Source of the DNA: Albidovulum sp. bin36
GTDB lineage: Bacteria > Pseudomonadota > Alphaproteobacteria > Rhodobacterales > Rhodobacteraceae
Assembly: GCA_002238565.1 (NCBI GenBank)
Contig: MPMP01000034.1
Coordinates: 1-49,437, forward strand
Length of the DNA: 49,437 nt
Reading direction: 5' to 3'
Below the pieces are notes generated by a model. That model had not been told where the DNA came from. It saw nothing but the letters and a program-made list of their open reading frames with translations, and made no database searches. Both the position numbers and the translations under genes were made by a program. Below are positions 37,859 to 49,437 of this stretch, piece by piece; within the stretch, counting starts at the first letter, position 1, and the number at the start of each line of letters is the position of its first letter.

Positions 37859-37866
37859 TAATATTT
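37859..37866 (+). repeat. Target-site duplication, left copy (TAATATTT)
   Basis: TAATATTT directly abuts the first G of the left MITE. The identical octamer directly abuts the last C of the right MITE (48969-48976). The inner flanks of the two MITEs differ from it, so the duplication belongs to the whole 11.1-kb unit. Confidence 0.8.
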
Positions 37867-38143
37867 GGGAATTATATACGAAAGTCCCATCGTTCGATTT
37901 CGAGATTGCGCTCGCGGCGGAAACGGGGCAGGAAGACCGAGCATGAGGGCGAGGCGTCGCCTTTCCGATCTCGGCAACAGAGTTGTAGGGCTGCGGCCCT
38001 GCCGAACCGCCCCGCTGCAGGGGCAGACATGACGCGGCGTCCGGGATTGGCGCATCTGCACGGCGAGGAGCGTTGGCGTTGGCCACTTCGACGACCCGTG
38101 AAATCAATGCGAAGTCTCAATGGGACTTTCGTATATAATTCCC
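37867..38143 (+). repeat. MITE-like repeat, left copy (277 bp)
   Basis: The two ends are perfect 24-bp inverted repeats beginning GGGAATTATATACGAAAGTC (37867-37890 and 38120-38143). The interior has no convincing gene, but it can form hairpins such as AGGGC-TGCG-GCCCT at 37987-38000. It differs from the right copy by a few substitutions and a 2-bp shorter G run. Confidence 0.85.
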
Positions 38144-38250
38144 TTCGTTTTCGTCTTCCTACAGGAAACGCAGCGGAGCCCCGCGGTCCACGTGTGCAGG
38201 GCGATCAGTGCCGCGCACCCGGGTTGCCAAGGGTCCCAATATGCAGTAAT

Positions 38251-38270
38251 CGTTTTCTCACATCGTGAGA
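38251..38270. promoter_or_regulatory. LacI-type operator upstream of the enoyl-CoA hydratase
   Basis: CGTTTTCTCACATCGTGAGA, containing the inverted repeat TCTCAC-ATC-GTGAGA. It matches 48659-48678, upstream of the GH88 gene at the other end of the cargo, at 16 of 20 positions. It lies 66 bp before the hydratase start. The LacI protein encoded at 40487-41518 is the likely ligand. Confidence 0.6.
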
Positions 38271-38335
38271 TCGCGTTCATGAGCCCGCTCGTTGAGCTCT
38301 CAGGCGCCCGCACACATGGAGCGTAGAAACCGGAA

Positions 38336-39148
38336 ATGGCGGAGAAGGGCTTGGTCGGCTTGCGGATAGAGGAACGCGGTATCGCGGTTCTTACTCTGAA
38401 CAACCCACCACTCAACCTGAACACGCTCGCGACCATCAAGCGGATTCTCTTTCTGTGTCGGAAAATCAAGGATGACCCTTCAATTCGCGCCTTGGTCGTC
38501 ACCGGGGCAGGGGAGAAGGCGTTCTGCGCCGGCTCCGACATTGGCGAATTTGCCGACGTGCGCCACGATGTTGTCACGCAAAAGCTCGCCCGCGAGAATC
38601 AAGCATTCACGGCAATCGAAGGACTTCCGGTTCCGGTGATCGCCGCGCTGAATGGCATCACCCTGGGCGGTGGCGCCGAGATCGCACTGGCTTGCGACAT
38701 CAGGTTCATGGATGAAACCGCCCGGATCGGCTTTCCCGAGGTCAAGCTCGGGGTCTTTCCTGGCAGCGGCGGCGTCTTCAGGTTGCCGCGCCTCGTGGGT
38801 CCGGCACACGCCTACGAGCTTCTCTACACAGGTGACATCATCGATGCCGCGGAAGCGCACCGTATCGGCCTTGTGAACCGGCTGGCGCCGCAGGGGCAGG
38901 CGCTGGCGGCGGCGCTCGATCTCGCCAAGGTGCTTGCCGGGCGCCCGGCCCTGGCACTGAGCCTGATCCGCGCTGGAGTGCGCGATGCCGAGTATCAGGA
39001 TACGAACCAAGCTACCGAGCGATCGCTTGCCGACAGCCATCGGGTGTTCTGCGGACCCGACCTCGAGGAGGGCGTCGCCGCGTTCTTCGCCAAGCGACCG
39101 CCAGTCTTCACCGCGCCGCGCACCACCGTGCGGGAACCCGGATCATGA
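38336..39148 (+). CDS. Enoyl-CoA hydratase/isomerase family protein
   Basis: A 270-residue crotonase-fold enzyme. It has the oxyanion-hole segments FCAGSDIGEF (about residue 63) and NGITLGGGAEIALACDIRFM (about 103-122), and GFPEVKLGVFPGSGGVFRLP with the catalytic-side Glu position of hydratases. It would hydrate or isomerise a CoA thioester. The CoA-transferase start overlaps its stop by 4 nt (ATGA), so the two proteins act in one pathway: activation of an acid to its CoA ester, then hydration. Codon use here (many CTC, CTG, GTC) looks more conventional than that of the surrounding host genes, which fits transfer. Confidence 0.88.
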   Translation: MAEKGLVGLRIEERGIAVLTLNNPPLNLNTLATIKRILFLCRKIKDDPSIRALVVTGAGEKAFCAGSDIGEFADVRHDVVTQKLARENQAFTAIEGLPVPVIAALNGITLGGGAEIALACDIRFMDETARIGFPEVKLGVFPGSGGVFRLPRLVGPAHAYELLYTGDIIDAAEAHRIGLVNRLAPQGQALAAALDLAKVLAGRPALALSLIRAGVRDAEYQDTNQATERSLADSHRVFCGPDLEEGVAAFFAKRPPVFTAPRTTVREPGS

Positions 39149-40401
39149 CCGCGCCGCTGGATGGCATCAGGATCATCAGCCTGACGCACTATCTTCAAGG
39201 TCCTTCTTGCGTTCAATTCCTCGCCGACCTCGGTGCGGACGTAATAAAGGTGGAACGCATCGGAGGTGCCTACGAGCGCCACTGGGCTGGCGCGAAGGCC
39301 TTCCTGAAGGACGATACGAGCGTCTTCTTTCTCCTGTCCGGACGCAACCAGCGCAGCGTGGAGATCAACTTTGGCACCGAGGAAGGCACCGACGCGCTCT
39401 GGAGATTGATCGAAAGCGCGGACGTGCTGGTGGAGAATTTTCGGCCGGGGACGCTGGACAAGCGTGGCTTTTCCTACGAGGCGGTCAAGGCGCGCAACCC
39501 GGGAATCGTCTATTGTTCGCTGACTGGTTTCGGGACCGATGGCCCGTCGCGGGCGAAGCCGGGCCAGGACCTGCTGATCCAGTCCCTCAGCGGTCTCACC
39601 ACGCTCAACGGCCGCGCCGACGACCCGCCGATCCCCATCGGCTCAGCGGTCGTTGACCAGCACGCTGCCACGCTGGGTGCGATGGGAGTCCTCGCCGCGC
39701 TGCTCGGGCGCGAGCGGACGGGCCGGGGCTGCAAGGTCGACAGCAACCTTCTTTCAGCGGCCATGGATCTCCAGACCGAGCCTTTGAACTACCACCTCAA
39801 TGGCGCCGAGCTTTGGGACCGAAGCGCATCGGGCATCTCGACGCGCTTTCATCAGGCGCCCTATGGCGTGTTCCGGACCGCCGATGGCTGGCTGACCATG
39901 TCGCTGTCCGACGGCGCCACCCTCGCCAGAGCATTCAACGACGCGCGATTCGCTGAGTTGACGCGGGACGATCAATTCGATCTCCGCGAAGCGGTGAACA
40001 CCCGCGTTGCCGAACACATGAAGACTCGAACGACCGAGGAATGGGAGCAAACGCTCTCCGAACACGGCATCTGGTACGCACGTGTTCAGGGCTACGATGA
40101 ATTGCTGGCGGATCCCCAGGTCGATTTCAATCAGTCGATTGTCGAATTCGACGACCCCCGCGCCGGCCCTGTGCGTCTGCTGGCTCACCCGGTGAAATAT
40201 GATCGCAAGGTGCCGCCGCTTCGCCACACGCCGCCCGCGCCGGGTCAGCAAACGGACGAGGTTCTGCACGAACTTGGTTTTGACGAGTCCGAGATCAGAG
40301 GCCTCAGGGACAAAGGCGCGATCGGGCCTGATCGTGCCCTGGACGGATTCGATCGCAGCGCATCCGCGCCGGCAACCTCGTACAGCCGAAAGAAAGATTA
40401 G
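39145..40401 (+). CDS. Class III CoA-transferase (CaiB/BaiF family)
   Basis: A 418-residue CoA-transferase. The N-terminal block LDGIRIISLTHYLQGPSCVQ, then FLADLGADVIKVER, DVLVENFRPGTLDKRGFSYE, SLTGFGTDGPSRAKPGQDLL (the region of the catalytic Asp) and ATLGAMGVLAALLGRERTGR are standard for the family, and the length is typical. It moves CoA between an acyl-CoA donor and a carboxylic acid. It is translationally coupled to the enoyl-CoA hydratase. The substrate is unknown. The pair is unusual beside a GH88 hydrolase and a sulfatase. Confidence 0.9.
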   Translation: MTAPLDGIRIISLTHYLQGPSCVQFLADLGADVIKVERIGGAYERHWAGAKAFLKDDTSVFFLLSGRNQRSVEINFGTEEGTDALWRLIESADVLVENFRPGTLDKRGFSYEAVKARNPGIVYCSLTGFGTDGPSRAKPGQDLLIQSLSGLTTLNGRADDPPIPIGSAVVDQHAATLGAMGVLAALLGRERTGRGCKVDSNLLSAAMDLQTEPLNYHLNGAELWDRSASGISTRFHQAPYGVFRTADGWLTMSLSDGATLARAFNDARFAELTRDDQFDLREAVNTRVAEHMKTRTTEEWEQTLSEHGIWYARVQGYDELLADPQVDFNQSIVEFDDPRAGPVRLLAHPVKYDRKVPPLRHTPPAPGQQTDEVLHELGFDESEIRGLRDKGAIGPDRALDGFDRSASAPATSYSRKKD

Positions 40402-40486
40402 ACGCAATGGAAATTCGCTCGAAATCGCACCGTGGATCTCCGACAGCCTGGTCGGCTTCATTTTCAACTCAATTTGCGGACCGCAG

Positions 40487-41518
40487 ATGAAGACGGCGTC
40501 TCGTCAATCCGGTGTCGTCAGTCTCAAGGATGTAGCCAATAGGGCCGGCTGTTCGATCGCGACCGCATCGCGTGCCCTGAACGGGCATCCGACCGTCGGT
40601 GCGGCGGAAAGGGAACGCGTTCTCGAAGCGGCTTCGCAGCTGCGCTACGTCGCCAACAGCGCGGCGCGGGCGTTGCGATCGCAGGAGACCCGGCTGGTCG
40701 GGCTCATCGTTCCGACCCTGGATCATGCGATCTACGCCCGGATGGTGGACGGGTTGCAGCTGCAGCTTGAAAAGGCGGGCATCTCGGTCCTCATCAACTC
40801 CAGCGGTTACGACCTTGAGCGGGAAGAGACGCAGGCGCGCATTCTGGTGGCCCGCGGTGTCGAGGCGGTCGTGATGGTCGGAGCCGAGCACCGTCCGGAG
40901 ACGGCGGACTACCTGAACCGGGCGGGCGTGCACCAGATCTTCACCTATACGACGGAACTCGGGAACGGCGATGCTGCAATCGGGTTCGACAACCGTGAAG
41001 CGGCCGGCATAGCGGGTCGGTATCTGCTGGACTTGGGGCACCGTCGCTTTGGGATGATCTCAGGAATCTCCGAGGGCAACGACCGCGCCCGGAACAGGCG
41101 GGACGGCTTCAAGGAGACTCTTGCCGCCGCCGGCGTGCCGGAGAGCGAGATCGTGGTGATCGAGACCTCCTACAACATCGACCTCGGCGGGGCCGCGATG
41201 CGGTCGCTGATGCAGACCCGTCCGCGTCCGACTGCGGTGTTTTGCGGAAGCGACGTCCTTGCGGTCGGAGCAGTACGGACGTGCAAGTCCGAGGGAATAG
41301 CGATCCCGAACGAGGTCTCGGTCGTCGGTTTCGACGATCTCGAGGTCGCGCAGGTCGTCACGCCGGAACTGACGACGCTGAACGTTCCGGTCAAGTCCAT
41401 GGGGGAGGCTGCCGCGGACGCGACTCTGGCGCTATTTCGGGGCGGCAAGGATATCGTCACGCACGTTCCGCTACGCCTGGTTGTGCGGCAGAGCACCGGA
41501 CCCGCTCCGGCGACCTGA
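40487..41518 (+). CDS. LacI-family transcriptional regulator of the mobile cargo
   Basis: A 343-residue regulator starting at ATG 40487. The open frame runs upstream to 40199, but the part before residue 97 overlaps the CoA-transferase and is not LacI-like. The helix-turn-helix is VSLKDVANRAGCSIATASRA with LNGHPTVGAAERERVLEAAS; the effector domain begins RLVGLIVPTLDHAIYARMVD and includes VSVVGFDDLEVAQVVTPELT. It lies between the two functional arms of the cargo. LacI-type palindromes at 38251, 41583 and 48651 are its probable operators. Confidence 0.92.
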   Translation: MKTASRQSGVVSLKDVANRAGCSIATASRALNGHPTVGAAERERVLEAASQLRYVANSAARALRSQETRLVGLIVPTLDHAIYARMVDGLQLQLEKAGISVLINSSGYDLEREETQARILVARGVEAVVMVGAEHRPETADYLNRAGVHQIFTYTTELGNGDAAIGFDNREAAGIAGRYLLDLGHRRFGMISGISEGNDRARNRRDGFKETLAAAGVPESEIVVIETSYNIDLGGAAMRSLMQTRPRPTAVFCGSDVLAVGAVRTCKSEGIAIPNEVSVVGFDDLEVAQVVTPELTTLNVPVKSMGEAAADATLALFRGGKDIVTHVPLRLVVRQSTGPAPAT

Positions 41519-41582
41519 CCTGCGAGCATGCAGTGAAGCGCCGGCGCCGCAGTTCTTCCCTTCGCCGTGATTCATTGGACAG

Positions 41583-41594
41583 GAAATCGATTTC
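41583..41594. promoter_or_regulatory. Possible LacI-type operator before the sulfatase
   Basis: GAAATCGATTTC is a perfect 12-bp palindrome with a central CG, followed by TCA. It lies 40 bp before the sulfatase ATG. The form (A/T-rich arms around CG, then TCTCA) resembles the stronger palindrome at 48651. Confidence 0.4.
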
Positions 41595-41634
41595 TCAATA
41601 ATGGTGAAGGCCGATTCCAAAGAGGGAGGCGACC

Positions 41635-43206
41635 ATGTCCAAGCAACCCAACATCCTATTCATCATGGCCGACCAGGTGAATCCGGCCTTCCTGCCCTCC
41701 TATGGTCATCCGGTCGTGAAGACGCCCAATCTGGACGGAATCGCCGCCGATGGGGTGGTGTTCGAATCGGCCTATTGCGCAAGCCCGATCTGCGCACCGT
41801 CGCGTTTCTCGATGCTGACGGGCAGATTGGCCTCCGAGGCAGGGGTTTTTGACCATGGTTGCGAAATGCCCGCGTCGGCACCAACCATCATGCATTACCT
41901 GCGACACTTCGGCTATCACACAGCCCTGTCCGGCAAGATGCATTTCCTGGGGCCGGACCAACTCCACGGATACGTGGAACGGCTTACAACGGATATTTAT
42001 CCTTCGGACTTCGGGTGGGGCCCCGATTGGCGGTCGGGCACACCGGAGATCCCTTGGGCGCCGACCGGGATCAGCCCACGCACGGTCCTAGAGGCCGGTC
42101 CCTGCGCCCGAAGCATGCAGCTCGACTACGACGAAGACGTAGCCCACAAGGCAGTCCAGAAGATCTACGATCTCACCAGGCGGCCACAGCTGCAGCCGTT
42201 CTTCCTGACCGTGTCGTTTTCGCAGCCACATAGCCCCTTTGTTGCCGGCCGGGAGCATTGGGATCGATACGATCACCGCGAAATCGACATGCCAATAGTC
42301 GCACCGCTTTCACTCGATGAAATGGATGCACATTCGCGGCGACTTCATCACATGTTCCATATCGACGAATACACGGTGACGGAAGAAGACGTCCGAAACG
42401 CCAGGCATGCCTACTACGGCATGCTGAGCTATGTCGACGACAAGATCGGCGAGTTGATGACAGCCATCGCAGATGCCGGAATTTTGGAAGAGACCCTCGT
42501 GGTCTTTGCTTCCGATCACGGAGAAATGTTGGGCGAGAGAGGACTGTGGTACAAGCAGTCGCTGCTCGAGGGCTCGGTGCGCGTGCCGTTGATCATGCGT
42601 CTTCCCAAGGGGATGCCCCGAGCCGAGCGGCGGGTATCCCGGCCGGTTTCGCTGCTCGACTTACTGCCGACCTTCGTCGATTTCGCCTCCGATGGAACTG
42701 CGGCCGACTACGTCGAGCCGATTGTCGGTCGCAGTTTGTTGCCGGTGATGACTGCCGGGGAGGAAGAACGCAGCGATCCGGTGTTTTGCGAATACTCTGC
42801 AGAGGGCACCTATGCACCCTGCCTCATGGTGAGAAAGGGAAAGCACAAATACATCTACTGCGAAACAGATCCGACCTTGTTGTTCGACCTGGAATCCGAT
42901 CCCGAAGAATTAAACAACCTCGCGGAAGACGAGTCCTACAAGCCGGTACTGTGCGATCTGCACGATGAACTGCTCCGGACCTGGGACCCGGAACAGTACC
43001 GAACCGACGCGCTTGCGTCGCAAAAAAGGCAGTGGTTCATTCAAGACGTCGTGTCGAAGACCACGGCAAATCTATGGGACTTCCAGCCGTTTACGAACGC
43101 CAAGGAACAGTATGTGCGCAGCGGTGCAAATACGACATTTGTCAAGGGCCAAGCGAGGTTTCCCCATGTCGAACCGGCCAAACCGGACAAGCCGCGGGAT
43201 GCGTGA
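41635..43206 (+). CDS. Sulfatase, choline-sulfatase (BetC)-like
   Basis: A 523-residue type I sulfatase. The metal-binding D13-Q14 is in PNILFIMADQ, and the formylglycine motif C53-A-P-S-R57 is in SPICAPSRFSMLTG, so it depends on a maturation enzyme encoded elsewhere. HTALSGKMHFLGPDQLHGYV, ERLTTDIYPSDFGWGPDW, FASDHGEMLGERGLWYKQS and the C-terminal NLWDFQPFTNAKEQYVRS are close to choline-sulfatase features. No signal peptide is visible, so it acts in the cytoplasm. A strong GGGAGG precedes the ATG. Neighbouring GH88 and transporter genes make a sulfated sugar or uronate an alternative substrate to choline sulfate. Confidence 0.88.
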   Translation: MSKQPNILFIMADQVNPAFLPSYGHPVVKTPNLDGIAADGVVFESAYCASPICAPSRFSMLTGRLASEAGVFDHGCEMPASAPTIMHYLRHFGYHTALSGKMHFLGPDQLHGYVERLTTDIYPSDFGWGPDWRSGTPEIPWAPTGISPRTVLEAGPCARSMQLDYDEDVAHKAVQKIYDLTRRPQLQPFFLTVSFSQPHSPFVAGREHWDRYDHREIDMPIVAPLSLDEMDAHSRRLHHMFHIDEYTVTEEDVRNARHAYYGMLSYVDDKIGELMTAIADAGILEETLVVFASDHGEMLGERGLWYKQSLLEGSVRVPLIMRLPKGMPRAERRVSRPVSLLDLLPTFVDFASDGTAADYVEPIVGRSLLPVMTAGEEERSDPVFCEYSAEGTYAPCLMVRKGKHKYIYCETDPTLLFDLESDPEELNNLAEDESYKPVLCDLHDELLRTWDPEQYRTDALASQKRQWFIQDVVSKTTANLWDFQPFTNAKEQYVRSGANTTFVKGQARFPHVEPAKPDKPRDA

Positions 43207-43339
43207 CAGTGCCCCGGCACATTCGATGCGGTGATGGCCTTGACTGGATTGGCGGGCATCGGCTTGGACGGCACCTTGTGTCTGGGGACCTGACGTCCTG
43301 AAATCAGGTTTGACGCCGCGAACAGACAAACCCCATGAT

Positions 43340-43800
43340 CCGGAGGCTGTCGCAAAGGAGTCCTTGCTCATGTTCGTGTGTTGCAACAGACATCATGGGC
43401 GGCAAGAAAAACAGCCATTGGTGCGAAGTCGAGAATTGCCGCGCACAAGGCAGCGGGGTCGCTCAGACCAAGGTGACCCGTCCGACAGGAACGAACGATA
43501 TTCAGACGGAAAACGCGAGACGTGAGGCATTGTGCCTCGCGATCCGTACTATCTCCAATCGATTCCAAGAACGGAACGAAGCGCACATCTTCGTCTCGTT
43601 CATCGCCTTCTTCCTGACCCGCAAGGACATCGCCCGCGCGCCGCCACCGAAGTGCTCGGCACGATCCGGATGGTCGACGTGAATCTGCCACAACCGCTGG
43701 CCGGCACCCCGTCCTGCCGCGCAGTTCGCGGCCCGATTAGGGAGCGCGAGCTTCTGCTGCGCCTGGTCTGCATAACCCTGCCGGCACCAAGCCGCGCAGC
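43340..43800 (+). pseudogene. Transposase relic inside the mobile cargo (IS1634/IS4-like C-terminus)
   Basis: Fragments in two plus-strand frames resemble the C-terminal end of an IS1634-type transposase. First is RTISNRFQERNEAHIFVSFI, where a basic segment is followed by A-H-I-F-x-x-F-x-A-x-x-L. Then, after a frameshift, comes EVLGTIRMVDVNLPQPLAG, with the usual I-x-x-V-D-V-x-L-P strand, and a last L-L-x-R-L-x-x-x-L-P. The rest is missing. It lies at the convergence point of the two cargo arms, a tolerated landing site. Confidence 0.45.
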
Positions 43801-43984
43801 CAAGTGCCAGTCCGGTCCGGACAGGGGCGAAGCTGCCCCGGAAAAGGTGCGCCAACTTAAAAGAAATGACACCGAATCGCAAAGGAAACGCCGTTGCGCG
43901 ACCGGGAGCCGGATTTCCCTTTCAGAGCAAGAGGAATGCCGCGCCTTTCGGCGCGGCAATGCGAGGTTCGGGGAACCCGCGTGA

Positions 43985-44920
43985 CTACTTTTTCAGTCCG
44001 ATTTCCATGAACAGGTCGGCTATGCGCTGGAATTCCTGCTGAAAGAAGTCACTCAAGTCGGCCGAGCCCATGAAGTGCGGCGAACGGTTCGCGTCCATGA
44101 CTGAATCCTGGTAGGCGCTCTGACTTGTCGCCGCCTCGCATGACTCCGAAAGCTTGTCGACAATTGTCTGCGGGGTGCCGGCTGGCGCGTACAGAGCGAA
44201 CCAGATGGACAAGCGGATCGGCGGGCCACCCAGCTCGTCTATGGTCGGCACGTCGGGCAGACTATCCAGGCGCTCATCGGCCAGAACGGCAAGGGGCTTC
44301 AGGCCGAACTTGATGGCATTGCCGACGAGGTCGGCGGTCATGTCGACATGGCCACCGAGGACTGCGGTCGAAATCTTGGCACTGTTTTCGAGGGGTACGT
44401 TCTTGAGCTTTACACCGTAGGCGCGTTCCAGCAGCACGGCACCGACATGCGGGATGCTGCCCGGTGAAGCGGTACCTGCCGAGATGGTATCCGCCTTGGC
44501 CGCCGCGATCAGGTCATCGAGCGAACCGATGGGCGAATCCGGTCCAACCGATACGCCAACCGGATCGTTGATTGTCATGCAGATCGGAGCGAAACTGTTT
44601 TCGTCGTATGCTACGTCGCGCAGGTTCGGCTGGTAAACCGCGGTACCTGCCGGCAAGAAAGCCAGAGTGTAGCCGTCCGCATTGCTCTTCGCGAAGTTCG
44701 TGGCGCCGACAGTGCCGCCGGCGCCCGGCATATTGGTGATGATCAGGTTTTGACCCAGAATCGCCTCCAGGTGTGGCTGAATGAGGCGCGCCGCCGTGTC
44801 TGTGCCGCCGCCCGCGCCATAGGGTACGATCAGTTCGATATCCTTTTCCGGATACTCAGCCATCGCCGGAAAAGCGATGATCGTGGCCGCCAGGGCCGTT
44901 CCGAACAAACGTTTCATCAT
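43985..44920 (-). CDS. tctC: Tripartite tricarboxylate transporter substrate-binding protein (TctC/Bug)
   Basis: A 311-residue periplasmic binding protein. The signal peptide MMKRLFGTALAATIIAFPAM (cleavage after AMA) precedes YPEKDIELIVPYGAGGGTDT, the Bug-family entry loop, and NMPGAGGTVGATNFAKSNAD with DGYTLAFLPAGT. AAGG-type ribosome binding bases lie just upstream (AAAGGAGACTTGAA). Bug proteins bind carboxylates or related acids. Near GH88 and the sulfatase, an uptake role for a uronate or sulfated acid is an inference. It is the last gene of the GH88-tctB-tctA-tctC series, 261 bp after tctA. Confidence 0.9.
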   Translation of the reverse strand: MMKRLFGTALAATIIAFPAMAEYPEKDIELIVPYGAGGGTDTAARLIQPHLEAILGQNLIITNMPGAGGTVGATNFAKSNADGYTLAFLPAGTAVYQPNLRDVAYDENSFAPICMTINDPVGVSVGPDSPIGSLDDLIAAAKADTISAGTASPGSIPHVGAVLLERAYGVKLKNVPLENSAKISTAVLGGHVDMTADLVGNAIKFGLKPLAVLADERLDSLPDVPTIDELGGPPIRLSIWFALYAPAGTPQTIVDKLSESCEAATSQSAYQDSVMDANRSPHFMGSADLSDFFQQEFQRIADLFMEIGLKK

Positions 44921-45181
44921 TTCAAGTCTCCTTTCAGGTTGCTAGGTTTATGTCCGTGTCTTGGATCCCGCCCACAACCGGCCCCTTTCGATCGAAAGGA
45001 GGTGTGGTACGGTGCCGTCTGCGTTGCCCCGACGGACCGCGCAGATCCGGTTGCAGCCGATCCGAGCGTCGAAACCCGCCGGTCGGCCGTATCCGCCCCG
45101 ACTGGGGCGAGCCCCGTCGAGTCGCGATATCTGTGTTTCTCCGATGTGGAGCATTTCGGGCGGCATCGGCAATCATTACTT

Positions 45182-46675
45182 TCATTTCGTGCCGCCCTTT
45201 TGCCGTCGGAATGCCGCCTTGATGTAGGGCTGGATCAGAACCAGTGCCGTCAATGCGAACAGGAATGCCGCAATGGGCCGATTGGCGAAGGCCAGGAAAT
45301 CCTGGTCGGTCAGAATTAGCCCCTGCCTCAAGGCCCGCTCGAGCGGTGCGCCCAGGATGAATCCTATGACAATCGGCGCCAGCGGGAATCCATTGAGACG
45401 CAGGAGGAATCCCACGACTCCCATGACGATGGCGACAGTGAAATCGAATGGATTTGCTCTCGCCGCGTAGGCGCCGACGAAGGACAGCAGCGCCACCGCC
45501 GGCATCAGCAGCGATATCGGCGCCCGCAGCAATTTCGCGTAGAGTCCGGCCCCTGCGGCTCCGACGACCAAGATCATGATGTTCGCCAGGAAGAAAAGGA
45601 CGAAAATGCTGGTAACGAGGGTCGGCTGGTCGTGAAAAAGGAAGACACCCGGAACGATGCCATGGATAGTCAACGCGCCCATCATGATGGCAACGACTCC
45701 GTCGCCGGGAATGCCGAGCGCCAGCATGGGAATCATGGCACCGCCGCTGACGGCGTTGTTCGCGGTTTCGGACGCCAGCACACCCTCCGGTTCACCACGT
45801 CCGAAATTTGCGCTCCGCGGCGAACGGCGCTTAGCGTCGGCATAAGCGATGAAGGATGCAGCCGTGGCACCGGTACCCGGGAGGATCCCGATGAAGCAAC
45901 CAATGCCGCTGCTGCGCAAGATCGTCGCCCAGCGGGCTCGCCATTCACGCCATGGCGCCAATTTGAACCCGCCCGCGGTGACCATCGGGACCGAAGCGTC
46001 CTTCATGCAGGCCGCCTGCATCAGGATTTCAGAAATTGCGAACACGCCAATCAGCACTGGCACCAGCGCGAAACCGCCCGACAGGGCGAAGATGTCGAAA
46101 TCGAATCGCAACTGGCCGGTCATCTCGTCCGGCCCGAAAAATCCGAGAAACACGCCTATCAGTGAGGCCAGCACGCCCTTGACCATGCTGCCGCGGGAAA
46201 CCCAGGCGATGGTGGTCATGGCGAACAGGATCAGCGCGAAGATCTCGATGGGACCAAAATTCAATGAAAGGCGCGCCAGTTCTGGCGCCACCAGCACCAG
46301 CAGCACCAGCGAAGTCATGCCGCCGACGAAAGAGCCCATGGTCGCCCAGCCCAACGCCAAGGCAGCCTTGCCCTGCTGGGCCATCGGATAGCCATCCATG
46401 ACCGTGGCTGCAGATTGCGGTGTGCCCGGCACGTTGATCAGAATTGCCGAAACAGATCCACCATAGATCGAGCAGGCATAGACCGAGACCAATACCGCGA
46501 TGGCGGCCGCCGGCTCAAGCGCGAAGGTGATGGGCAATACCATGACCATACCCAGCGCGCTGCCAAGCCCAGGCAAGACTCCGACTACGACGCCAACGAT
46601 ACTGCCGGCCAGCAGCGCGATCAGGACATTCCATGAGAACGTCAAGGAAAGCGCGTCTGGGAGATGGGCCAACAT
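45182..46675 (-). CDS. tctA: Tripartite tricarboxylate transporter large permease TctA
   Basis: A 497-residue, roughly 11-12-helix permease. The family motifs are VGVVVGVLPGLGSALGMVMV near residue 30 and CFIGILPGTGATAASFIAYA in the middle, with NAVSGGAMIPMLALGIPGDG. I start at the ATG at 46675 (MLAHLPDALSLTFSWNVLIA); the open frame extends 29 codons further into tctB, but that part is tctB antiframe. The start is 4 bp beyond the tctB stop, so the genes are coupled. It uses the ion gradient to import the ligand delivered by TctC. Confidence 0.92.
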   Translation of the reverse strand: MLAHLPDALSLTFSWNVLIALLAGSIVGVVVGVLPGLGSALGMVMVLPITFALEPAAAIAVLVSVYACSIYGGSVSAILINVPGTPQSAATVMDGYPMAQQGKAALALGWATMGSFVGGMTSLVLLVLVAPELARLSLNFGPIEIFALILFAMTTIAWVSRGSMVKGVLASLIGVFLGFFGPDEMTGQLRFDFDIFALSGGFALVPVLIGVFAISEILMQAACMKDASVPMVTAGGFKLAPWREWRARWATILRSSGIGCFIGILPGTGATAASFIAYADAKRRSPRSANFGRGEPEGVLASETANNAVSGGAMIPMLALGIPGDGVVAIMMGALTIHGIVPGVFLFHDQPTLVTSIFVLFFLANIMILVVGAAGAGLYAKLLRAPISLLMPAVALLSFVGAYAARANPFDFTVAIVMGVVGFLLRLNGFPLAPIVIGFILGAPLERALRQGLILTDQDFLAFANRPIAAFLFALTALVLIQPYIKAAFRRQKGGTK

Positions 46676-46679
46676 GAAG

Positions 46680-47171
46680 TCAGTTCCACAAAACGCCGGA
46701 TGGAACGCTGATTTTCGCCACGTGGCCGAGCGCGAAATTGACGATAACAGGAAGCACGACACTTACCGGGATCAGGATCGCCCATCGCCGATACCCAAAC
46801 GCTGCTCCGACAGCGATCATTGACGCCGCACCGCCAAGCAGCAGGCCGGTGAGCCAGACCGCCAGGGCGGAGGCGATGATCATGGCCAAGACAGAAAACA
46901 GACCCGTCAATCCGACTGCCATCACGCCCTGATGGCCTTGCTGCGGTCCCCTCCTCCGCAATCCGTTGGCAATCAGGATTGCCGACAACAAGATCCACAG
47001 GATCAGGATGATCCTCGGGAAGAACACCGTCGACACATCGCCGAACAACAAGTCGAAGTCGTAGCGGTCACTTCCCGTGTGCAGGAGCAGACCGCCACCG
47101 ATGATCAGCAAGACCAGGCCGCAGAAAAAATCCGGATGAATCCGCTTGTCGATCTTCTGATCCTCGTTCAT
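46680..47171 (-). CDS. tctB: Tripartite tricarboxylate transporter small permease TctB
   Basis: A 163-residue protein with four hydrophobic segments (FFCGLVLLIIGGGLLL, FFPRIILILWILLSAILIA, LFSVLAMIIASALAVWL and AILIPVSVVLPVIVNFALG), the TctB layout. I use the ATG at 47171 (MNEDQKIDKRIHPDFF); an earlier ATG at 47258 would add a basic, non-conserved extension. Low sequence conservation is normal for TctB; position before tctA gives the assignment. Confidence 0.87.
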   Translation of the reverse strand: MNEDQKIDKRIHPDFFCGLVLLIIGGGLLLHTGSDRYDFDLLFGDVSTVFFPRIILILWILLSAILIANGLRRRGPQQGHQGVMAVGLTGLFSVLAMIIASALAVWLTGLLLGGAASMIAVGAAFGYRRWAILIPVSVVLPVIVNFALGHVAKISVPSGVLWN

Positions 47172-47420
47172 CAGTCGGCGCCCCAATGACCGGCCAATCG
47201 GAGGACGCTTGACGTCCGATCGGCGCAACCTTCGACTGGCATCTTCGGACCCTTGCAAGGTGCGAGATGGCCAAGTCTTTCATCTAGGCCGTACGCGCAG
47301 ATTTCCTTCTCCGATTCTCGCCTGGTTGGGCCCGCGTCAATCGAGCCTACGGCGACGTTCCCGATCATGGTCCGTGGTACTCCCCTTCATCTAATCAGGC
47401 CCTTTCCAGCCAAGCGGCTC

Positions 47421-48551
47421 TTAGGAACAGCCAAGTACATCCCAATGCTGCCGATGCCGCAGCTTGACTAAAGCCTCCATGAAATAGTGATCGCCGTATA
47501 TGATCGACTCGTCGACGCCTGAGTTTCGCGGGTAGTCCACTGTTCCATGCATGAGCAGACCGGGGGTCTCGAAGCGCGCGAAATCCACACAGGTCTCGAT
47601 GAGACCGAGAACGATGCGACGGCCCGCATCCGTGTAAGCGCTTTCGCCGGAATTCCGACCAAGCTCGAGAAGTCCACTGGCGGCAATTGCGCCAGCGGCC
47701 GAGTCCCTGGGTTCATCATCAAAGTCGCGATCGAAATCCCATGGCGGCAGAGCCCGATCACCAAGCCGCTCGAGGAAGTGGTCGGCAACCTGTTTTGCAG
47801 TCGCCAACATATCCTCGGAACCCGTCATACGTCCGACCTTTGCGAACCCGTAGAGCGCCCACGCCTGACCGCGGGTCCAACAGGATTCGGAGTGAGCTCC
47901 CTGATGCGTATTTCGCTCCGTGACGGCGCCGCTTTCGTTGTCGTGATTGACCGTGTGATAGGTCGAGCCGTCCGGCCGCACATGCTGTGCCCGAATAGTC
48001 TCGGCGCAACGCCTTCCGACGGTGGTGAGTTCGGCGTCACTTGTCTGACGGCCTGCCCAAAGGAGGATTGACAGGTTCATGACCGTGTCAACGATGGCGA
48101 GCCCCAAATAGCATGGGTCCTCCTCGGGGCTCCAGGCCGGTATGTATCCGCCCTTTGAGTGGAACCGGGTCGCCAGGGATCGCGCCGCCTGGATGGCGGT
48201 CGCACGATGACCGGTGCGGCCAAGGATGTTGTAGCCGCGAACCACGCTTGGCTCGAACAAGAAGCCCATATCGTGAGTTGTCCGGTCAAATGACCGCGAA
48301 TACAGGCGTGCGGCCCATGCGTCGGCAGTCTCGAAAATCTCCTCGCTGCCACGCACCAGGCCAGCGAGCCAGAGCATTCCAACGAAGAACCCGGCGGTCC
48401 AGCGTCCATGCTCGCTGACCAGCCAGTCACCGTTTCGTGTCACGTGCGGGAACCCGTCCAACCGATCAGCATCGCGCAGGCACTTGTCGATCCCGAGTTC
48501 CAGCGCTGCGTCGAGGCGCTGATTCAGTTCAACCATCTTCGAATTCAGCAT
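47421..48551 (-). CDS. Glycoside hydrolase family 88, unsaturated glucuronyl hydrolase
   Basis: A 376-residue (alpha/alpha)6-barrel enzyme that hydrates the double bond of 4,5-unsaturated uronic acid ends produced by polysaccharide lyases, freeing the neighbouring sugar. The two Asp residues equivalent to the known pair in Bacillus UGL are D94 (THDMGFLFEP) and D155 (LAIVDTVMNLSILLWA). Other family blocks are SEHGRWTAGFFVGMLWLAGL, SCWTRGQAWALYGFAKVGRM, DSAAGAIAASGLLELGR and IYGDHYFMEALVKL. No signal peptide is seen, so it acts on imported unsaturated di- or oligosaccharides. It heads the tct gene series and has a LacI operator 100 bp upstream. No lyase is present in the cargo. Confidence 0.9.
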   Translation of the reverse strand: MLNSKMVELNQRLDAALELGIDKCLRDADRLDGFPHVTRNGDWLVSEHGRWTAGFFVGMLWLAGLVRGSEEIFETADAWAARLYSRSFDRTTHDMGFLFEPSVVRGYNILGRTGHRATAIQAARSLATRFHSKGGYIPAWSPEEDPCYLGLAIVDTVMNLSILLWAGRQTSDAELTTVGRRCAETIRAQHVRPDGSTYHTVNHDNESGAVTERNTHQGAHSESCWTRGQAWALYGFAKVGRMTGSEDMLATAKQVADHFLERLGDRALPPWDFDRDFDDEPRDSAAGAIAASGLLELGRNSGESAYTDAGRRIVLGLIETCVDFARFETPGLLMHGTVDYPRNSGVDESIIYGDHYFMEALVKLRHRQHWDVLGCS

Positions 48552-48650
48552 GCTACCTCCGAATTGGGGGGTGCGTGACGTGAACGCAGGACATTGCTCG
48601 ATGAAGCGATCTTAATCGGTAAATTCTCCTGAAACCGGGAAACGGCATCT

Positions 48651-48678
48651 TGAGAAAACGTTTTCTCACGGTGTGAAA
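48651..48678. promoter_or_regulatory. LacI-type operator region upstream of GH88
   Basis: TGAGAAAACGTTTTCTCA (48651-48668) is a perfect 18-bp palindrome with central CG, a classic LacI-family operator. Overlapping it, CGTTTTCTCACGGTGTGAAA (48659-48678) matches the site before the enoyl-CoA hydratase (38251-38270) at 16 of 20 positions. It lies about 100 bp upstream of the GH88 start and 12 bp inside the right MITE. Confidence 0.75.
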
Positions 48679-48689
48679 CCGATGTCAAT

Positions 48690-48968
48690 GGGAATTATAT
48701 ACGAAAGTCCCATCGTTCGATTTCGAGATTGCGCTCGCGGTGGAAACGGGGCGGGAAGACCGAGCATGAGGGCGAGGCGTCGCCTTTCCGATCTCGGCAA
48801 CAGAGTTGTAGGGCTGCGGCCCTGCCGAACCGCCCCGCTGCAGGGGGGCAGACATGACGCGGCGTCCGGGATTGGCGCATCTGCACGGCGAGGAGCGTTG
48901 GCGTTGGCCACTTCGACGACCCGTGAAATCAATGCGAAGTCTCAATGGGACTTTCGTATATAATTCCC
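48690..48968 (+). repeat. MITE-like repeat, right copy (279 bp)
   Basis: Same 24-bp perfect inverted ends (48690-48713 and 48945-48968) and same orientation as the left copy, with a few substitutions and a 6-G instead of 4-G run at about 48843-48848. Near-identity indicates recent divergence. Confidence 0.85.
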
Positions 48969-48976
48969 TAATATTT
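48969..48976 (+). repeat. Target-site duplication, right copy (TAATATTT)
   Basis: Identical to 37859-37866 and directly adjacent to the outer end of the right MITE. Confidence 0.8.
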
Positions 48977-49196: not shown

Positions 49197-49437
49197 TCAA
49201 CATGGAATTATTGGGCAAAGCGACTTCAGCTTTACTCGAGCGTCTTCCGTCCTGAATCGCCAATCGACGGGCGTCGCCGCGGCGTTGCGCCGCGCCTGCC
49301 AGGCGGCGACCTGGCGCTCGAGCGTCTCGCGGTCCGGGATGCGCCGGGCCAGGCACTGCCTGGACAGAACGCCGATCTCGATCTCCGCCATGTTGAGCCA
49401 GCTTCCGTGCTTGGGCGTGTGGTGAACTTCGAAGCGG
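49197..49437 (-). CDS. IS630-family transposase, C-terminal part (cut by window edge)
   Basis: Eighty codons in one frame enter from the window edge: RFEVHHTPKHGSWLNMAEIE, IGVLSRQCLARRIPDRETLE, then VAAWQARRNAAATPVDWRF and the end LKSLCPIIPC. H-x-T-P-x-H-G-S-W-L-N-x-x-E contains the last catalytic Glu of the IS630 DDE domain, and V-D-W-R-F is the family tail. Its N-terminal part lies outside the window, so whether it is intact is unknown. Confidence 0.85.
   Translation of the reverse strand, partial: RFEVHHTPKHGSWLNMAEIEIGVLSRQCLARRIPDRETLERQVAAWQARRNAAATPVDWRFRTEDARVKLKSLCPIIPC

Follow-up and report, generated by a model that had tools for sequence, protein, structure and literature searches.

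The closest described systems are the TIME-COMPs, composites of up to 11.4 kb in which two miniature inverted-repeat transposable elements (MITEs) with Tn3-type ends and 5–6 bp repeats, direct or inverted to each other, enclose a core; the bounding elements are the Tn3-derived IMU, IS101, MITESen1 and TIME244, transposition has been shown for some, and most composites are flanked on the outside by direct repeats (PMC13367494, PMC4133298). In Acinetobacter, MITEs are described as flanking class 1 integrons, and MITE-297 as flanking 76 kb (PMC6382973, PMC10969869). Mobile insertion cassettes (MICs) are non-autonomous and moved by the transposase of an insertion sequence (IS; PMC3281130), while among other reported MITEs one has 4-bp repeats and one is linked to IS1182 (PMC12888890, PMC11578231). 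In the IS1595 family, 8-bp duplications are usual and members have an N-terminal zinc finger except in the IS1016 group (PMC8101967). Here we analyse a 49,437-bp stretch of DNA from Albidovulum sp. bin36 (hereafter the window), in which two MITEs bracket a gene cluster. The observation is real, and its most likely explanation is a composite transposon with IS1595-type MITEs as borders and catabolic genes as cargo.

Contig C22, which the window covers in full, belongs to a 5.6-Mb draft genome (G000; 201 contigs, 94.55% complete). The element spans positions 37867-48968 (11,102 bp) and encloses 10.5 kb of genes with predicted roles in uptake and degradation (Table 1). Its two MITEs are complete, lie in direct orientation, carry the same perfect 24-bp inverted ends (GGGAATTATATACGAAAGTCCCAT) and are 99% identical, the differences being two substitutions and a 2-base indel. 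The octamer TAATATTT abuts each outermost end. At the inner ends, TTCGTTTT follows copy 1 and ATGTCAAT precedes copy 2; neither equals TAATATTT or the other, they agree with the octamer on the other side of their own copy at 4/8 and 2/8 positions, respectively, and both are 6/8 A/T, a level reached by just 5.7% of window octamers. Direct repeats are therefore found at the outermost and not the inner ends, as in a MITE-bounded composite transposon, and the two MITEs surround a core with no transposase domain in the nine cargo open reading frames (ORFs) scanned, a set that does not cover every short frame. Both copies have the properties of a MITE (short, with terminal inverted repeats and no transposase gene), a 92-codon frame being left out of the domain scan. 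A sequence-only reading of this DNA had proposed such a pair of direct ~278-bp MITEs with perfect 24-bp ends, an 8-bp duplication outside the outer but not the inner ends, a single transposition of the whole block and no transposase gene of its own. The pair and the duplication were borne out, the lack of a transposase held among the cargo ORFs tested, and the block transposition is supported by the outer and inner octamers.

We conclude that 37867-48968 is very probably a composite transposon that was inserted as one block by an IS1595-type transposase acting in trans on the outermost ends. The gene cluster would first have acquired a MITE on each side while still at an ancestral site, where TTCGTTTT and ATGTCAAT were probably the octamers duplicated. 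The outermost 24-bp ends would then have been paired by the transposase supplied in trans, which would have moved the enclosed genes to where they now lie, behind a fatty-acid-hydroxylase gene, with duplication of eight target bases. Separate landings beside the cluster followed by block transposition lead one to expect two unrelated AT-rich inner octamers, which matches what is observed.

Like TIME-COMPs, this element consists of two transposase-less miniature elements that carry a core and have direct repeats outside. It would work like a TIME-COMP, yet is not one by repeat length and by the relatives of its ends: TIME-COMPs have 5–6 bp repeats and carry resistance, replication or resolvase genes, whereas the window has an 8-bp repeat, predicted catabolic cargo and ends shared with IS1595 elements (judged without direct comparison to Tn3 ends). 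A MIC holds its cargo between one pair of IS ends, one end per side, whereas each side of the window element is a complete two-ended MITE. IS1595 family transposons resemble it in that their ends start with GGGAATTATATAC or a one-base variant, they have 8-bp duplications, and complete elements contain passenger genes; unlike it, they carry a transposase gene, which the window element lacks among the ORFs tested, having two complete MITEs as borders instead. The Acinetobacter elements are also composite-like, identical MITEs flanking a gene block, but there the cargo consists of resistance or mercury genes, and the available parts of those reports make no mention of IS1595-type ends. The claim of the sequence-only reading that a gene-mobilising MITE pair is in itself unusual finds no support, as MITE-bounded composites have been described for resistance genes (PMC13367494, PMC4133298, PMC6382973). 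What is new here relative to such composites is the combination of IS1595-type ends and catabolic cargo. A title- and abstract-level literature search, in which subscription journals were mostly uncovered, returned no description of an IS1595-type MITE composite among the matches listed.

The assignment of the ends comes from complete transposons. A degenerate pattern of the MITE end matched 8/394 genomes and its backwards control 0/394. Following up the paired ends led to elements with a DDE_Tnp_IS1595 transposase, mostly accompanied by a Zn_ribbon_IS1595 domain; autonomous relatives of the kind that the sequence-only reading had proposed to seek do exist, and they are IS1595-type. Two recognisable ends were found for eight transposase-bearing elements, six of them with exact 8-bp duplications (Table 1). 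Their transposases were identified by running Pfam PF12762 on L049 and placing the other five by protein similarity (E 5e-104 or better). At both ends, these six elements are alike to the MITE end in 12–13 of the first 13 bases. End sequence and duplication length are thus common to the MITEs and to six complete elements with an IS1595 transposase, and it is well supported by these sequence comparisons that the mobilising enzyme would be of the IS1595 type. An end-like site (≤5 mismatches in 20) also lies at 12/30 transposase loci of six genomes (L111 has 6-mismatch sites only) and at 5/9 transposase loci of genomes G394 and G395 (L181 has a 6-mismatch site). No second end was found for many of the lone ends and other transposase loci within the stretches retrieved, and a plasmid search for L049 found none. 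A reading of L050 as transposase-free was rejected, an IS1595 transposase being found inside it.

A tRNA-Gly gene (anticodon gcc; L049:4089-4164) is a passenger in the complete IS1595 transposon L049:2515-5407, which has an exact 8-bp duplication. A 562-bp element with IS1595-type ends (L051:2143-2704, on contig C2 of genome G059) has non-matching flanks; a GFA-domain gene fills most of it and so leaves no room for a transposase, and the element looks like a one-gene mobile cassette.

The MITE itself recurs outside the window. In one-genome-per-species contigs, the exact 22-base end pattern occurred in three contigs (the window's own record was possibly excluded), all from metagenome-assembled genomes (MAGs) of Silicimonas, a member of the Rhodobacterales. 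A similarity search of the window's family gave some match in 11/394 genomes, those in G000 and G201 being the only strong ones, and searching G201, G394 and G395 (the latter two being the genomes of L020 and L021) revealed many copies. The longer matches were retrieved and most short interior fragments were not. Both flanks were readable, in MITE orientation, for 17 copies (G394, nine; G395, seven; G201, one), after exclusion of fragments, badly decayed ends (L133, L142, L144, L145, L146, L149, L161, L162), the short match L154, which was filtered out, and copies cut by a contig end; the possible composite borders G201:C134 and G395:C37 are included. The flanking octamers agree exactly in eight copies, at 7/8 positions in one, at 6/8 in one and at ≤5/8 in seven. 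The eight include the copy in a named Silicimonas MAG (L020), that on G394:C9 after a 1-base shift of the left end, and an internally deleted copy on G394:C148 (~65.4 kb) read from two partial matches. Because the MITE recurs elsewhere, in independent copies with 8-bp target duplications, the limits of the element and the duplication length are known independently of the window. Split insertions in G201 have matching flanks on separate contigs (C44 and C41, AACGAAAG; C64 and C69, ATACGAAG), and insertions of the family favour AT-rich octamers. In the window's own genome, the search recovered only the two window copies of the repeat plus a lone end on C170 (96% over 25 bases), and a looser end pattern detected related ends on C63, C93, C136 and C157 as well. 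A plasmid search found no MITE, and the 19-base MITE end was absent from the viral contigs searched.

Some further properties of the MITE were observed. In copy 1 (37867-38143), plus-strand frame 0 is stop-free across the full length, only 92 codons, and a minus-strand frame is open to within two codons of the end. The predicted fold pairs the ends on both strands, in a prediction run without a shuffle control. The ends contain TATAAT, yet promoter prediction reported no outward site there. In G394, two MITEs (L134:14824-15099 on C115; L135:44-319 on C17) have at least 43 bases of left flank in common and different right flanks, which could reflect a block ending in a MITE that is present at two places.

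How readily could the outer match arise by chance? The octamer is not unique: the window contains five copies of TAATATTT, compared with an expectation of 0.30 from shuffles. For one fixed flank pair, the chance of 8/8 agreement is ~6e-5 with random window octamers, 6e-4 with AT-rich window octamers and 3e-4 under the base preferences of MITE-family flanks (18 flanks, TAATATTT included). Two cross flank pairs were compared in the own genome, and one matched. The AT preference raises the chance of identity under a reading of two independent MITE insertions beside a long-resident cluster, with a coincidental outer match and decayed inner duplications, an account that is also consistent with the 9/17 readable family copies lacking an exact duplication. 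Even with that preference, chance identity stays at only ~3e-4 to 6e-4; moreover, both inner duplications would have been lost from copies that are 99% alike and have perfect ends while the outer octamers remained exact, and the glycosyl hydrolase family 88 (GH88) gene of the cluster is rare in the class (7/385 genomes). We regard this account as very improbable.

The inequality of the inner octamers bears on the other alternatives, as a misassembly, a reciprocal exchange between single copies and the integration of a one-MITE circle all fail on it in their simple form. In the last case, a circle made up of the cargo plus a single MITE would have recombined by homology into a resident MITE already flanked by TAATATTT. 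The MITEs are direct repeats of 99% identity, as this requires, and family copies with their own duplications are common, but a circle whose MITE was a simple insertion predicts equal inner octamers where TTCGTTTT and ATGTCAAT are observed. The circle escapes this only by having popped out of an older two-MITE composite, so that a composite is needed again; we consider it unlikely, though the most probable of the alternatives. Least probable of all is a contig wrongly joined within the 0.28-kb repeat. The assembly is a draft of 201 contigs, and several G201 and G395 contigs do break inside the repeat; a swap between simple insertions nevertheless predicts identical inner octamers, which is not the case, and the internal differences between the copies help assembly.

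The distribution of the cargo was compared with the block-transposition reading. Near-identical cargo DNA was found in 1/394 genomes, G000 only. Any cargo match was found in 342/394 genomes, G000 included; outside G000, among the matches listed, these are single-gene homologous stretches, the best at 66% over 0.9 kb. Relatives carrying the cargo without the repeats at the same locus, which according to the sequence-only reading would have spoken against a composite, were accordingly not found among these matches. The 7/385 class genomes with a relative of the GH88 gene include G000, and G000 carries a second, 37% identical GH88 gene on C38; relatives in the class and on plasmids are <40% identical among the matches listed, and the best relative in the protein database is 92% identical. 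The restriction of near-identical cargo to one genome and the rarity of GH88 in the class are as expected for acquired DNA.

Several observations weigh against block transposition by an IS1595-type enzyme. Over the full MITE end, the six elements with duplications are alike in only 15–20/24 bases, and the closest ends (21–22/24) belong to elements with one recognisable end or a decayed second end (G209:C46, 22/24; own C93, 22; own C63, 22 on the left and 18 on the right; G395:C26, 21). Two of the eight two-ended elements, own C63 (flanks aaaaaaat / taaaagtg) and C125 (tttaaatt / atatcatg), have no matching duplication, and with 9/17 family copies in the same state the absence of inner duplications is by itself weak evidence. 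The empty site that the sequence-only reading had proposed to look for was found in 0/393 other genomes by a joined-flank search: G000 alone matched at both flanks, 29 further genomes matched just part of the hydroxylase gene (68–80% identity among the matches listed), and in the only other genome from the genus the left flank gave no more than scattered 63–74% matches. A second copy of the composite was not found either, and the evidence for its movement is thus the flank pattern of a single draft assembly, in which the right flank is ~0.46 kb long before the contig ends within an IS630-like DDE_3 transposase fragment. In the similarity searches of the family genomes (MITE, cargo and joined flanks), no more than two first-look candidates were scored for each genome. 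G+C is equal in the cargo and the left flank (0.607 and 0.604), so base composition is no mark of foreign origin. Finally, the own-genome transposases with the best-matching ends look impaired.

G000 has 31 transposase matches. The transposase on C93 has one MITE-like end (22/24), with no second end found; it is changed in the third conserved motif and reads HADG where most others read HTNG or a near form. That on C125, with ends of 19 and 20/24, is changed in the second conserved motif and reads YSED where others read YTDE or a near form, and both have LERG where the other transposases have LKR; we take the altered stretches to hold catalytic residues. The C63 transposase contains two in-frame stops, and C85 has the common motifs intact but no MITE-like end within 1.5 kb. 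Among C93, C125, C63 and C85 no transposase was thus found that combines intact motifs with near-identical ends, and since the assembly is 94.55% complete, the helper may be absent from it. IS1595 transposase genes of this genome adjoin a DNA methylase gene on C63 (L055:3362-6590, N6/N4 type) and on C93 (L056:3486-5570, C5 type).

The cargo genes (Table 1) are predicted to form a left operon on the plus strand (enoyl-CoA hydratase, CoA-transferase, LacI and choline-sulfatase) and a right operon on the minus strand (GH88-like, TctB, TctA and TctC-like). Each operator-like site has a MITE on one side and an operon's first gene on the other, and no further palindrome-like site (≤4 mismatches) was found elsewhere in the window. 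From these features, the cargo is predicted to be two convergent operons governed by a single LacI-type repressor, whose operators would lie close to the two inner ends. The sequence-only reading had called it a regulon, which is reasonable in view of the LacI gene, the perfect palindrome and the 14/18 match, co-regulation itself being a prediction. The genes are predicted to serve the uptake and breakdown of a compound, possibly sulfated or uronate-containing; some relatives of the GH88-like protein carry the name unsaturated chondroitin disaccharide hydrolase. About 0.2 kb to the right of the composite, the DDE_3 (IS630-like) fragment lies on the minus strand (window 49200-49436), placing two mobile elements side by side.

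Table 1. Features of the composite element (window positions) and IS1595-type elements with exact 8-bp duplications (lengths)
Feature	Position or length	Strand	Basis or remark
Left target-duplication copy, TAATATTT	37859..37866	none	sequence reading
MITE copy 1, 277 bp	37867..38143	+	perfect 24-bp inverted ends 37867-37890, 38120-38143
Predicted LacI-type operator-like site, 14/18 to right-hand palindrome	38243..38260	none	also a direct repeat
Enoyl-CoA hydratase/isomerase family protein	38336..39148	+	PF00378
Family III CoA-transferase (CaiB-like)	39145..40401	+	PF02515
LacI-family regulator	40487..41518 (open frame from 40199; likely start 40487)	+	PF00356, PF13377
Choline-sulfatase	41635..43206	+	TIGR03417, 621 bits vs cut-off 433
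TctC-like binding protein, tripartite tricarboxylate-type transporter	43985..44920	-	PF03401
TctA-like permease	45182..46762	-	PF01970
TctB-like small membrane protein	46680..47258 (start likely inside frame)	-	PF07331
Glycosyl hydrolase family 88-like protein	47421..48551	-	PF07470 barely over cut-off
Perfect 18-bp palindrome TGAGAAAACGTTTTCTCA, predicted LacI-type operator-like	48651..48668	none	pattern comparison
MITE copy 2, 279 bp	48690..48968	+	inverted ends 48690-48713, 48945-48968
Right target-duplication copy, TAATATTT	48969..48976	none	sequence reading
IS1595-type element L049	2,893 bp		duplication AGCGCAAT
IS1595-type element L050	4,110 bp		duplication CAAATATT
IS1595-type element L190	5,659 bp		duplication TTCCGTTT
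IS1595-type element L191	5,265 bp		duplication TTCGGATA
IS1595-type element L192	5,271 bp		duplication CATCCTTG
IS1595-type element L193	2,426 bp		duplication AAACTTTG

Cross flank pairs were also examined in the MITE-rich genomes (24 in G201, 83 in G395 and 99 in G394). In G201, the copy on C134 lies between ATATCATC (left) and AAACAAGG (right), and ATATCATC recurs to the right of a different copy, on C45. In G395, CATCGTGA flanks the C119 copy on the left and the C37 copy on the right, the left-hand octamer of the C37 copy being GAAATATT. Both pairs bear the outer signature of a composite; the assemblies break in the repeat and do not resolve the candidate cargo. These pairs may instead reflect exchange between single copies, and the sequence to the right of the C119 copy in G395 is missing from the assembly. 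As cargo side in G201, C64 was rejected because together with C69 it makes up a split insertion (ATACGAAG), while C88 is an unlikely one, as it carries a DXP-synthase gene; an octamer shared by C148 and C16 in G394 looks like the same site on overlapping contigs. The MITE family might serve generally in the Rhodobacterales as a gene shuttle without a transposase, IS1595-type transposases in trans repeatedly moving whole regulated metabolic clusters enclosed by MITE pairs, with at least two further composites (in G201 and G395); we hold this tentative idea to be rather doubtful at present. Of all these points, a possible recurrence in related genomes most deserves to be settled.

The known MITE-bounded composites, as described in the available parts of the reports cited above, are linked to Tn3-type or integron systems and carry mostly resistance genes. 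A regulated metabolic cluster of 11 kb between IS1595-type MITEs would extend both the element families involved and the kinds of genes moved, and would suggest that environmental bacteria acquire catabolic pathways by a route that transposase-based annotation overlooks.

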